Assembly (NCBI GenBank): GCA_012031415.1
Contig: JAAUTN010000039.1
Coordinates: 1 to 32,650 of the forward strand
DNA length: 32,650 bases
Reading direction: 5' to 3'
Source: Leptolyngbyaceae cyanobacterium SM1_4_3
Lineage (GTDB): Bacteria > Cyanobacteriota > Cyanobacteriia > Elainellales > Elainellaceae
This document shows positions 437-6,627 of this stretch, piece after piece. Below the pieces are notes generated by a model. The model saw only the letters and a list, made by a program, of their open reading frames with translations. It was not told the origin of the DNA and ran no database searches. The first letter of the stretch is position 1, and every line of letters starts with the position of its first letter. Position numbers and translations under genes: made by a program.

Positions 437-2146
437 GTGAGTCAGCATCCATTAAATCGGCTGAGACGCTACGATGCGGGCGCGATCGCTCAGCACTATC
501 GCTACCGTCCCTGGAAAACCTGGTGGCGTGCCCTAACGGTTATCCTGGCGTTTGCCAGGTTCATATTGAATCTAAAGCGGGACGAGTGGCAGCATCAGGT
601 TGAGGCAAGTAAGTCTAAGCGCGCTGTTCAGTTACGCCAGCTTCTGACTCGTTTGGGTCCAGCTTTTATTAAAGTCGGACAGGCCCTCTCTACTCGGCCT
701 GACTTGATTCGCAAGGACTTTTTGGAAGAGTTGATTAAGCTGCAAGATCAACTGCCTCCTTTCCCAAGTCTTCAAGCGTTTACCATTGTTGAAGCTGAAC
801 TGGGTCGTTCAATTAGTGAAACTTTTAGTGAAATTTCGTCGGAACCCGTTGCTGCTGCATCCTTAGGGCAGGTCTATCGAGCTAAATTGCACAGCGGCGA
901 GGAAGTAGCGGTTAAGGTGCAGCGTCCCGACTTGCTGCCCACTCTGACGTTAGATTTATATCTCATGCGCTGGGCAGCAGGTTGGATTGCTCCCTGGCTT
1001 CCTTTGAATTTGGGTCATGATCTGACCTTAATTGTGGATGAGTTTGGCATCAAACTGTTCGAGGAAGTTGATTATCTGAATGAAGGGCGAAATGCTGAAA
1101 AGTTTGCAGCTAACTTTCAGGACGATCCCAGCGTCAAAGTTCCTGCTATTTATTGGCGATACAGCAATACCCATGTCCTGACGCTGGAATGGATCGATGG
1201 CTTTAAGCTCACTGATACTCAGAGAATTCAGGAACTTGGTCTTGATACAGACACCTTGATTCAAATTGGGGTTACTTCGGGGTTAAGGCAGCTTTTGGAA
1301 TTTGGCTTCTTTCATGCTGATCCGCACCCTGGCAATTTGTTTGCCATGCCCGATGGCCGAATGGCCTACATCGATTTTGGCATGATGGATCAACTCAGCC
1401 AGGAAATGAAGGAAACGCTGGTTGATTCTCTCGTTCATCTCGTCAATAAAGATTATCCTGAACTTGCTGAAGACTTTGTAAAATTGGGCTTTCTCACTCC
1501 ACAAACTAACATTTGGGAGATTGTTCCAGCTCTAGAAATGGTCTTGGGTGAAGCAATTGGCGAAAGCGTTGGTAACTTCAATTTCAAAACTATTACCGAT
1601 CAGTTTTCTGAACTGATGTATGATTACCCGTTTCGGGTACCTGCTAAGTTTGCGCTGATTATTCGCTCTCTAGTAACGCAGGAAGGTTTAGCTCTCAGCC
1701 TCAACCTTAATTTCAAAATTGTTGAGGTTGCTTACCCCTATGTAGCGCGACGGTTGTTGACTGGCGAATCTCCTGAATTGAGGCGCAGACTCATTGAGAT
1801 TTTGTTTAAGAATGGCAAGTTTCAGTGGGAGCGGTTAGAAAATTTGATTGCGATCGCCCGCTCTGACCAAAGCTTCGATATACTCCCAACGGCGCAATTA
1901 GGTTTACAATACCTGTTGTCTGATGAAGGTCAGTTCTTGAGGCGGCAACTTGTTCTAGCGCTAGTTGAAGACGATCGCCTACATACCGACGAAGTGCGGC
2001 GGTTGTGGAACTTGATTAAACCAGATCTTAAGCCCTCACGTTTGTTGAACGCGGCCCTGGGAGCATTGACCGGGCTATCGGCTGAGGAAGTTGCTTTACT
2101 CCCGACTGTTGCAGCCTTCTCAGACCTCAATAGGGCAAATCGTTAA
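437..2146 (+). CDS. ABC1K / AarF / UbiB-family atypical kinase
   Basis: This is a 569-residue member of the ABC1K (AarF/UbiB/ADCK) family of atypical kinases, which in cyanobacteria and plastids are linked to prenylquinone metabolism and photosynthetic stress responses. The family motifs are all present: KVGQALS near residues 79-85, the alanine-rich AAASLGQVY loop that replaces a P-loop, HADPHPGN with His293, and DFGMMD with metal-binding Asp313. The start is GTG at 437, preceded by a purine-rich AGAGG-type site; translation from there gives the expected N-terminal helix region. A small membrane protein follows 37 bases after the stop and may be cotranscribed. A second, longer paralogue lies at 22811-24847. 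The exact substrate cannot be read from sequence. Confidence 0.95.
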   Translation: MSQHPLNRLRRYDAGAIAQHYRYRPWKTWWRALTVILAFARFILNLKRDEWQHQVEASKSKRAVQLRQLLTRLGPAFIKVGQALSTRPDLIRKDFLEELIKLQDQLPPFPSLQAFTIVEAELGRSISETFSEISSEPVAAASLGQVYRAKLHSGEEVAVKVQRPDLLPTLTLDLYLMRWAAGWIAPWLPLNLGHDLTLIVDEFGIKLFEEVDYLNEGRNAEKFAANFQDDPSVKVPAIYWRYSNTHVLTLEWIDGFKLTDTQRIQELGLDTDTLIQIGVTSGLRQLLEFGFFHADPHPGNLFAMPDGRMAYIDFGMMDQLSQEMKETLVDSLVHLVNKDYPELAEDFVKLGFLTPQTNIWEIVPALEMVLGEAIGESVGNFNFKTITDQFSELMYDYPFRVPAKFALIIRSLVTQEGLALSLNLNFKIVEVAYPYVARRLLTGESPELRRRLIEILFKNGKFQWERLENLIAIARSDQSFDILPTAQLGLQYLLSDEGQFLRRQLVLALVEDDRLHTDEVRRLWNLIKPDLKPSRLLNAALGALTGLSAEEVALLPTVAAFSDLNRANR

Positions 2147-4158: not shown

Positions 4159-5166
4159 ATGTCTGGTCTGGAAATAAGCCTACTAAAGCTCTACATTCCG
4201 TTAGTCGGGTGGGTCGGGTTGGGTGTCTTGCTAGGACACAAGCTGCCTAGAGCGATTCCTCTGTTTCTCGGCAAATTTCTGTTTTGGATTGGAGTGCCGC
4301 TTAGCATTGTATCTTTTCTTCGCCAGACAGATTTGTCAGAGTCGGTTTGGCTTGCTCCCGTTGCTGCATGGACTGCAATGCTGTTGGGTGGTGGGCTAGC
4401 CTGGATCTGGATACGCGGGCGATCGCACTGGGAACACCGACAGCAAAAAGCTGTAAATAGTAGGATTCAGGAAAATTCTGGACAGCACCGAAAGGGGCGA
4501 TCGTCCAAGACAAACTGGAGCAAACCTACCCAGGGTAGCTTCCTGCTAGCCGCGATAGTTGGCAATACAGGTTATTTAGGCTATCCCGTTTCGCTGGCGC
4601 TAGTTGGACCACAATACTTTGCCTGGGCAATCTTCTACGACACCCTCGGCAGTACGCTAGGAGCTTACGGGCTAGGCGTAGCGCTAGCAGCCCGGTTTGG
4701 CATGGGTGGTCAAGGACAACGACTACTGGTTGAAGCCTTGCTAAAAAATCCTGCCTTGTGGAGCTTCTGGTTTGGCTTAGGGTTTCGGGTAATTCCACTG
4801 CCAGTGCTAGTCGAGCAGGTGTTAAAGGGGTGTGGTTGGGCCGTTATTGCTCTGTCGCTGCTTCTATTGGGAATGCGATTAAGCCAGCTTACCTCCTGGC
4901 AAAGTGTCAAACCCGCTTCGATCAGCCTGGGAATCAAGATGCTGATTGTCCCCCTTGTAGTTGGCTTAGGACTGTCACATTTTGGAGTAACGGGTTCACC
5001 CCAGTTGGCGATCGTCCTACAAATGTCGATGCCTCCTGCTTTTGCGACTCTGGTTATCGCTGAAGCCTACAACCTTGACCGAGAACTAACAGTGACAGCG
5101 CTGGCCGTTGGCTCCCTGGGCTTGCTGCTAATGCTACCGATGTGGCTATGGCTCTTCCCAGGCTGA
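4159..5166 (+). CDS. AEC (auxin efflux carrier) family permease
   Basis: The 335-residue protein has about ten hydrophobic helices in the two-half arrangement of the AEC/BASS-fold transporters. The first half contains GNTGYLGYPVSLALVGP, a hallmark of the family's discontinuous helix, and the second half ends with SMPPAFATLVIAEAYN, the equivalent crossover segment. A basic hydrophilic insert of about 40 residues (around residues 90-130) separates helix 3 from helix 4 and makes the protein a little longer than usual. Substrates of bacterial members are mostly organic acids, but none can be assigned here. It stands alone and is divergent from the VanY operon across a 101-base gap. A bulged hairpin of transposon-end type begins 11 bases after the stop. 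Confidence 0.88.
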   Translation: MSGLEISLLKLYIPLVGWVGLGVLLGHKLPRAIPLFLGKFLFWIGVPLSIVSFLRQTDLSESVWLAPVAAWTAMLLGGGLAWIWIRGRSHWEHRQQKAVNSRIQENSGQHRKGRSSKTNWSKPTQGSFLLAAIVGNTGYLGYPVSLALVGPQYFAWAIFYDTLGSTLGAYGLGVALAARFGMGGQGQRLLVEALLKNPALWSFWFGLGFRVIPLPVLVEQVLKGCGWAVIALSLLLLGMRLSQLTSWQSVKPASISLGIKMLIVPLVVGLGLSHFGVTGSPQLAIVLQMSMPPAFATLVIAEAYNLDRELTVTALAVGSLGLLLMLPMWLWLFPG

Positions 5167-5173
5167 CGTGACA

Positions 5174-5581
5174 TACTCCCGACGCTGATGCTACGCATAC
5201 AGCGCGGGCTTCTCCCACCGGAAAGTCCTTCTAGGATGAAACCGGACTGGAGCATTTTAGAGTGACGCGATGCCCAACGCCACTTGCATTTAATTTTGTG
5301 TTTCGCCCTATTTTTGACCTGTGCAACGGAGACGCTTGTTTGAGGTCGCAATGCCGCAAATCAGAGGCTTATCAGTCACGTTCAAGGGGAGGAAATCAAC
5401 CCTTATGGCAAGCTGCAAAAGTCATTGCCTTGTGTGTATTTTATCATTGTGTGGCGATTCGTCGCCAACCCCACTCACTGTTTCCGCAGGCGAGAAAAGA
5501 GATTTGGGGGTTGAACTCCTCACCGCCGCGCCTATCATCCCGACGCTCATCCGAAGCGGATAGAGCGCGGGGCTTCCCTTC
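5174..5581 (+). mobile_element. Candidate non-autonomous IS200/IS605-type element (two matching hairpin ends)
   Basis: Two hairpins in the same orientation lie 361 bases apart, at 5178-5208 and 5539-5571. Both have the lower stem cccgacgct/agcgcggg with a bulged A. Their upper stems differ in sequence but keep pairing: atgc/gcat in the first, atccg/cggat in the second. Both are followed by a gggcttc(t)ccc-like run. Direct-orientation subterminal palindromes, rather than inverted ends, are characteristic of IS200/IS605 elements and their transposase-less derivatives. The roughly 330 bases between them hold no recognisable tnpA or tnpB; short open frames there have no family features. Exact boundaries are unknown. 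The first hairpin also resembles the 3' part of TnpB-associated RNA, but I cannot prove expression. Confidence 0.5.
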
Positions 5582-5625
5582 TATTGGGCTAAAACGGTAT
5601 TGCTAACCTCCAGGCTCAAGATTTC

Positions 5626-6084
5626 TCATCCAACCCAGTTGACATCTCCATCGGAAGAACTAACCGAAGGTAAAGGCTTAGAGATGGGCAACTCTTTGCG
5701 GACGGAAGATTGACCTTCAGCAGAATTCAACTGATGACCTGACACAACGGAGCGGGGCGGTAAAGAAATTTCATCCCCCGTTGCTTTGAGGTGTTGACTT
5801 GTGCCGTCAGCTTTAGGCTTTGTCGAATTTACTTGATGCTTGAGGGAACGGCGCTCTGGCATCACAATTTTTTCCATCAGGTAATCAACGGTTTGCTGCT
5901 TGACCCAACCACGAGCCGCTAAAATCTCACCAAACCGCATTCCAGTTACCTTTTGGTCGTTCAGAGCGACTTCAATTTGACCAATGGTCAACAAACCCGC
6001 ATCAACGAGATAACTACCTATTCGCTTCGTACCCGTGAGCGTTGGCACCGTTTTAACTCGGTAACGATCGCTCTTATCTTGCAT
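5626..6084 (-). CDS. Stand-alone MshEN / GspE N-terminal-like domain protein
   Basis: This is a 152-residue protein. I choose the ATG at 6084 because GGAG lies six bases upstream of it; a TTG four codons earlier is less likely. Residues of about 15-70 contain IGSYLVDAGLLT, then IEVALNDQ, GMRFGEILAARGWV and a further helix. This is the helical repeat pattern of the N-terminal domain of type II secretion / type IV pilus ATPases (GspE/PilB, MshEN), which in some proteins binds cyclic di-GMP. No ATPase follows. The C-terminal 80 residues are polar, Ser/Pro-rich and probably disordered. It sits alone between the putative mobile element and a long gene-free stretch. A regulatory or adaptor role is inference. 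Confidence 0.7.
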   Translation of the reverse strand: MQDKSDRYRVKTVPTLTGTKRIGSYLVDAGLLTIGQIEVALNDQKVTGMRFGEILAARGWVKQQTVDYLMEKIVMPERRSLKHQVNSTKPKADGTSQHLKATGDEISLPPRSVVSGHQLNSAEGQSSVRKELPISKPLPSVSSSDGDVNWVG

Positions 6085-6627
6085 ACTCAGCTCCAAAAAT
6101 CACTAGAGAAGGTGTTGTAAGAGGGATATTGAGATAGCTACTCCACTATTTCAAGGGAGTGAGGCGAAAACGTGTCGAGCCATCTGCTCCTATTGCTGAT
6201 GCTAGAGGGGGGCATCTCAAGCAACTACATACCTTGATTGTTGACTTACTTGACTGTTGACTTAGTTACTAAAAGGTACAGATGTTCTGGTTGCCAAAGC
6301 GTAATTCTACACAGTATATCAACTATTTCACGCAAGCTTTATGAAATGCGTTCATATTTTGACAGAGAACTAACTGATGTTGTTCCTAAGGGTCTACGAA
6401 AGTTCGTAGAGGCGATCGCTCCTACACTTCTCTTCACAGTTCCTTTATCGTATTCCTGACCCCATTAGCTTGTCTCTCAAAATAGATAAGTTCTGAAACT
6501 GTCTCTGCCCTCTTTAAATTTTCCAAGAATTTTTAACTGCCCTAAAGGGTGAGTAGAACAACGTGGGGAACACTAACCTCATATATTTCAGCAGCCTTAG
6601 AGCTTGAAGCCCAACTGATTAAACCTC
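6085..6627. other. Gene-free region upstream of the sensor kinase
   Basis: No credible gene is seen in about 540 bases; one short open frame inside it has no family features. It contains a 10-base direct repeat tgttgactta at 6239-6248 and 6255-6264 (period 16), a hairpin and a HIP1-centred repeat at 6393-6429. It presumably holds the promoters of the MshEN-like gene (leftward) and the sensor kinase (rightward), but I cannot point to convincing -35/-10 boxes. Confidence 0.45.
6393..6429. repeat. Inverted repeat plus HIP1-centred dispersed repeat
   Basis: tctacgaa (6393-6400) and ttcgtaga (6403-6410) form a perfect 8-bp inverted repeat with a 2-base spacer. The adjoining 6409-6429 stretch, with HIP1 at 6412-6419 followed by cctacact, matches 11403-11423 at all but about two of 21 positions. 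It looks like a small dispersed repeat built around HIP1. Confidence 0.55.

Follow-up and report, generated by a model that had tools for sequence, protein, structure and literature searches.

A probable non-autonomous IS200/IS605-family element carrying a remnant of a TnpB guide-RNA scaffold in a cyanobacterial genome

The gap between two genes of the DNA analysed here contains two similar hairpins and no evident gene, raising the question of what kind of unit the hairpins delimit and how it came to lie there. The window, 32,650 nucleotides long, is contig C352 of a draft genome (G000, the host genome below) of 7.79 Mb in 700 contigs, and a tnpB fragment of this genome has named relatives that point to a cyanobacterium. 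On one side of the gap lies a PF03547 membrane-transport gene (4159-5166, plus strand) and on the other a gene to which no family is assigned (5626-6096, minus strand). An initial annotation, made from the sequence, placed a possible transposase-less IS200/IS605 derivative at 5174-5581 and considered a guide-RNA relic conceivable.

Borders, copies and loci lacking the element

The gap holds a 426-bp gene-less unit of mobile DNA, read on the minus strand, for which comparison with related genomes gives the following limits and terminal motifs.

5168..5593, minus strand: whole element, with its left end at 5593 and its right end at 5168; the sister-species copy matches exactly 5168-5593, and the left border is common to the copy on contig C276
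5589..5593, minus strand: TTTAG, presumed target and left cleavage motif, by analogy with the copies of a related element in genome G075, 8/8 of which are preceded by TTTAG
5168..5171, minus strand: TCAC, presumed right cleavage motif; 8/8 of the G075 copies end in TCAC, and TCAA of IS608 offers an analogy (available excerpts of PMC5934647)

The location given at the outset was therefore right and its extent slightly narrow, the sister-species copy setting the borders at 5168-5593. This copy, in a species of the same genus (G002), is 87% identical (373/428 columns); neither of its flanks matches those of the window, and the alignment stops at the element borders. In the host genome, a partial second copy on contig C276 is identical at 119/121 bases over the left end, has another flank and runs off the contig, and contig C91 has another left and right end, spaced by about 400 bases and enclosing a different interior. 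Three relatives (G001, G003 and G008) have the same gene pair without the element. The stretch between the points where homology to either side begins again measures about 140 bases in G001, 9 in G008 and 0 in G003; the exact empty joint is unreadable because these relatives are too diverged. Judged from these alignments, the element is a discrete unit with defined borders and with copies at unrelated loci.

Two checks proposed with the initial annotation were thus answered in part: copies exist elsewhere in the host genome, as the C276 fragment shows, and no intact tnpA or tnpB with these ends was seen in the draft; the element-free gene pair exists in relatives, and its precise joint is obscured by divergence. 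The same annotation set its reading against a sequence without other copies, conserved at this locus and unlinked to any IS end. The C276 and G002 copies, the three relatives lacking the element, and hairpins that are those of IS605-type ends show otherwise. A search for the element in 98 genomes, the host genome included, gave matches in 43, mostly to the ends only, and the interior was found in 2 of the 36 genomes of the order, again counting the host genome. Among plasmid records, the element matched one, by its right end only.

Hairpin ends and their kinship with tnpA/tnpB elements

The ends of the element are formed by two hairpins in direct orientation, the spacing from start to start being 361 bases.

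5539..5572, minus strand: left-end hairpin with bulged base; repeat, shuffle-fold and G002-alignment evidence
5178..5208, minus strand: right-end hairpin, overlapping the tnpB end in relatives; fold, relatives' loci and covariation

Repeat and fold analysis recovered both the spacing and the common bulged lower stem that had first been described: a 30-nt direct repeat (5177-5206 and 5538-5567) is 73% identical, and in both hairpins the lower stem is TCCCGACGCT...AGCGCGGG, a single base being bulged. Folded as single-stranded DNA and compared with dinucleotide shuffles, they give z-scores of -4.0 and -3.3 on the plus strand (0/200 shuffles equal for each) and of -3.9 and -2.8 on the minus strand (0/200 and 1/200 equal). 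The upper stems had been said to differ yet to stay paired, and in 34 distinct right-end hairpins of the loci analysed 92.9% of 408 cells are indeed paired, vs. 77.7% after shuffling and 30-51% with partners slid. Between the window and the G002 copy the hairpin tips are replaced with pairing intact, and between the window and locus L076 the tips change far faster than the remainder of the element. The tips of hairpins 5539-5572 and 5178-5208 differ from L076 (9/30 and 9/34 changes) with pairing retained.

Elsewhere in the host genome, a left-end hairpin of this family follows TTTTAGC (L014, G000:C640:13667-13698), and the exact-pattern search gave no right end there. Fourteen left ends were collected with a pattern demanding TTAGC or TCAGC, and they give no support for the motif because the pattern itself required it; the left ends at L079, L083 and L093 show TTGAGC or TTCAGC.

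The assignment of 5593 as left end and 5168 as right end on the minus strand follows from relatives whose tnpB elements are bounded by the same hairpins. These elements are about 1.4-1.9 kb long and several have a divergent tnpA-like frame; PF01797 matches lie inside two of them in G009 and one in G007, and NCBIfam names one TnpB and one TnpA among elements with these ends. In the host genome, a tnpB fragment (PF07282) on contig C241 ends in the same hairpin, on the other strand. Like an IS200/IS605 PATE, the element in the window has subterminal imperfect hairpins at both ends that are common to a tnpA/tnpB element, and, as initially annotated, no transposase gene was found inside it. In the G075 element, insertion lies 3' to a fixed short motif and leaves the target unduplicated; the window copy shows the motif only. 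Classical MITE features are lacking, with no inverted pair within 5100-5700 and no duplication at the eight G075 copies. Nor does the element fit REP palindromes (GTAG/CGTC), defined in the available part of PMC3733652 as dispersed 20-40 bp palindromes in high copy, as the 7.8-Mb genome has six exact-pattern hairpins, of which four form two pairs. An Rfam search of the window gave no match. The copies, the element-free relatives and the ends common to tnpB/tnpA elements together uphold the initial reading as a transposase-less IS200/IS605 derivative. The draft host genome showed neither a cognate TnpA nor an intact TnpB, and no tnpA bracketed by these ends was seen near its five Y1 matches. 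A different TnpB of the host genome (L020, G000:C9) is split into frames of 207 and 157 aa.

The element of G075, a genome of another family, has the same layout: it is coding-less, 430 bases long, and present in eight copies (L160, L164 and L166-L171) that are identical over 420 bases and have eight different flanks. All eight are preceded by TTTAG (TTTAGC in seven, TTTAGA in one) and end in TCAC, and none shows a flank duplication; in IS200/IS605 elements the left cleavage motif is kept in the flank. Going by these copies, the G075 element is recently mobile. Its interior matches, whole or in part, 10/388 genomes of the class, and the element matches no plasmid and no phage. The Y1 loci examined in G075 are not bracketed by these hairpins. 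A PF07282 protein was found in neither G075 nor G066, the former result not being proof because the G075 assembly is a draft; G043 has 40 such proteins and G002 has 3.

Coding-less elements at L141, L142, L143, L144, L145 and L154 (G075, G066, G043, G181, G317 and G229, respectively) share a strongly conserved non-coding core running from GACCGACCCGTA to GCAAGTC(C/T)CCCG. In G229 this core is joined to a different right-end type. It is not in Rfam (three loci searched), where one sub-threshold match fell elsewhere in L127. The G229 element (L154, G229:C292; approximately 1100-1650, minus strand) interrupts a long open frame that resembles a DNA polymerase IV gene.

The right-end domain and the interior

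The last ~125 bases of the element (window 5168-5288) correspond to a tnpB 3' end plus the right end, the gene itself being gone. In ISDra2, the guide RNA of TnpB (reRNA) comes from the tnpB 3' end and right-end region, according to the available excerpts of PMC8612924. Features of this domain and of the adjoining interior and flank are as follows.

5261..5284, minus strand: helix I of the scaffold domain (tnpB-3'/reRNA), which covaries and is paired in 98.4% of cells across 18 elements
5218..5248, minus strand: middle hairpin of this domain, whose outer stem reads CCGG/CCGG here and CGGC/GCCG in relatives; 2/4 pairs change on both sides, 100% of cells paired in 12 rows
5150..5167, minus strand: flank that would act as guide if a guide RNA were made, being the 3' end of the permease gene in antisense; predicted from the ISDra2 reRNA layout (PMC8612924, excerpts)
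5294..5430, minus strand: conserved segment of the interior, which may be the 5' part of a non-coding RNA; 3/137 changes vs. the G002 copy, and a 13-nt word common with the G075 interior
5438..5446, minus strand: extended -10-like box TGATAAAAT (TGATAGAAT in the G002 copy), putative promoter; found by alignment and script, not listed by a sigma-70 scan

The right-end domain is linked to tnpB 3' ends by DNA alignment, its translated score being weak (39 vs. a shuffled mean of 33). Helix I and the right-end hairpin, compared across 18 elements with and without coding sequence, are paired in 97.9% of 287 cells (vs. 87.7% after shuffling and 39-53% with partners slid), and 7/16 pairs are changed on both sides, so that the domain has the conserved structure looked for in a TnpB guide RNA (reRNA/omegaRNA). 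In 12 coding-less rows, with the middle stem added, 96.2% of 238 cells are paired (shuffled 83.6%, slid 39-58%) and 9/20 pairs are changed on both sides; these rows include G088 of alignment A8, a right end without the rest, and those from G028, which are coding-less only as far as contig ends allow. Several rows being closely related to one another, such pairing counts are not independent events. A compensating change in helix I also separates the window from the G002 copy. The early remark that the hairpins resemble the 3' part of a TnpB guide-RNA scaffold is borne out by the alignment of 5168-5288 with tnpB 3' ends and by the covarying helices. Both early ideas hold together on this comparative evidence: the element is a transposase-less IS200/IS605 derivative and contains the remnant of a TnpB guide-RNA scaffold. 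Any role as RNA is argued only by helix I and the middle stem, because TnpA also requires the right-end hairpin to fold as DNA, and these two helices could also be inherited from the parent element.

Upstream of the scaffold, segment 5294..5430 differs from the G002 copy less (3/137) than the flanking stretches do (9/86 and 9/82; Fisher p ~0.01 each, for segments chosen after looking). A box of the form TGnTAnnAT scores best at the position of the -10-like box in 6/11 coding-less elements (window, G002, G075, G043, G361 and G379; script); in the other five the best-scoring box lacks TG or lies elsewhere. The word of 13 nt common to the window and G075 interiors is found in 0/300 shuffles. The RNA of the interior is not unusually stable (z +1.3), nor is the whole RNA (z -0.7).

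Several origins for the interior were considered and rejected. As a tnpB remnant, the ~300 bp are not demonstrably derived from the gene: a weak similarity to the N-terminus of TnpB (40% over 37 residues, E 0.09) has a score reached by 8/200 shuffles. As for homology with the interior of the G075 group (alpha), the 13-nt word is the one likeness beyond chance: a covariance model of the alpha 5' segment found neither the window nor the G002 copy, even at E up to 10, and nothing genome-wide in G000 and G002 under stricter filters; covariation in the alpha segment itself is equalled by 82/500 shuffles and comes from five close sequences. A likeness to Cas12k tracrRNA found no support: the model hit 6/388 genomes, and the hits examined were these elements or pieces of them.

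Alternative readings and comparison with known systems

The element is very probably a non-autonomous, PATE-like derivative of the IS200/IS605 family. It keeps hairpin ends and scaffold without genes, so its movement probably depends on a transposase from elsewhere. TnpA, a Y1 transposase acting in trans, would bind the single-stranded hairpins, excise the element and insert it 3' to TTTAG, following the single-strand peel-and-paste route of the family. The need for the right end to fold as DNA would be one reason for the scaffold to keep its fold; a possible second is that it still gives rise to a guide RNA used by a TnpB from another source. The window and G002 copies with their exact borders support a mobile unit, and the eight identical G075 copies and the covariation also favour this reading at the level of sequence comparison; the mobility of the window copy itself is a prediction. 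Weighing against the reading are the Y1 loci seen in the host genome and in G075, which lack these ends, and the blurred empty joint in the diverged relatives.

An extension of this reading would make the element a stand-alone source of guide RNA, with the -10-like box driving a ~260-nt RNA that crosses the conserved interior and the reRNA scaffold and enters the flank; a TnpB from elsewhere would use this RNA to cut the empty donor site, so that the element is retained. Covariation of the scaffold helices among coding-less copies by themselves (96.2% vs. 83.6% shuffled) points this way, as do the interior segment as the most conserved part, the recurrence of the -10-like box at this position across several coding-less elements, and a 448-aa TnpB frame with a similar right-end domain in G002. 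Against it stand the ordinary stability of the RNA, the presence of such elements in G075 and G066, where no PF07282 protein was found, the need for the right-end fold in the DNA itself, and a conservation contrast tested on segments chosen after looking; we consider the addition rather unlikely. Slightly less likely is an immobile relic, a dead deleted IS605 copy now decaying, whose paired tips are left over from its parent. Such a relic would agree with the host genome having two copies only and no intact cognate TnpA or TnpB seen, but not readily with an 87% identical short form at another locus in G002, end hairpins that differ between those two copies yet stay paired, or a related short form in eight identical copies. 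That the hairpins sit in the gap after a gene end might suggest paired transcription terminators or a host regulatory RNA unrelated to transposition; with no terminator-like site, absence from the syntenic locus in three relatives, and a hairpin pair that travels as one unit to the G002 locus, this is scarcely credible.

As a non-autonomous, PATE-like derivative, the element indicates that cyanobacterial IS605 mini-elements are able to persist and spread, retaining a nuclease's guide-RNA scaffold after the gene for that nuclease has been lost. A broader proposal, which we regard as speculative and improbable, is that cyanobacterial mini-transposons may be ends, promoter and guide RNA only, having dropped TnpA and TnpB while selection preserved a scaffold that has a promoter of its own and a conserved 5' RNA segment; TnpB in trans would serve donor-site homing, or the RNA would be used otherwise where there is no TnpB, as in G075. 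If such elements are transcribed, whether TnpB serves elements other than its own, and whether a guide RNA without its nuclease can be a selfish element, become testable questions.

Open-access literature searched, seen partly as excerpts, gave no cyanobacterial case with a retained guide scaffold; subscription literature lay mostly outside this scope, so no absence from print is claimed. As described in the available parts of the sources, the PATEs of Haloquadratum walsbyi are transposase-less, with near-terminal palindromes of IS605-type elements and no terminal inverted repeats (PMC3119063), and in a PATE-like element of Halanaerobium hydrogeniformans the LE hairpin and the entire RE persist together with the final 58 nt of tnpB (PMC7290912). 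The element in the window shares with them the lack of transposase, the near-terminal IS605-type palindromes and the lack of terminal inverted repeats. It differs in being cyanobacterial, in the covariation shown for its scaffold, and in a ~300-bp interior that is conserved between species, has a -10-like box and is not demonstrably tnpB. IS608, of the IS605 group, likewise has subterminal hairpins, with foot guide motif GAAT and right cleavage motif TCAA in the excerpts of PMC5934647; the corresponding motifs, as read from alignment, appear to be GAAG and TCAC here, which would fit one changed base pair. Unlike IS608, the element is without tnpA or tnpB and its left motif is TTTAG, not TTAC. 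Its right-end domain resembles the ISDra2 TnpB reRNA, so far as the excerpts of PMC8612924 describe it, in running from the tnpB 3' end through the right end with the flank as expected guide, and differs in sequence, in having no tnpB in cis and in being putative as an RNA. A further relative is ISSoc10 (named in the depositor's annotation of Chondrocystis plasmid AP018282), 47 nt of whose right end are 95.7% identical to the right end here, and which differs in carrying an orfB (TnpB) gene.
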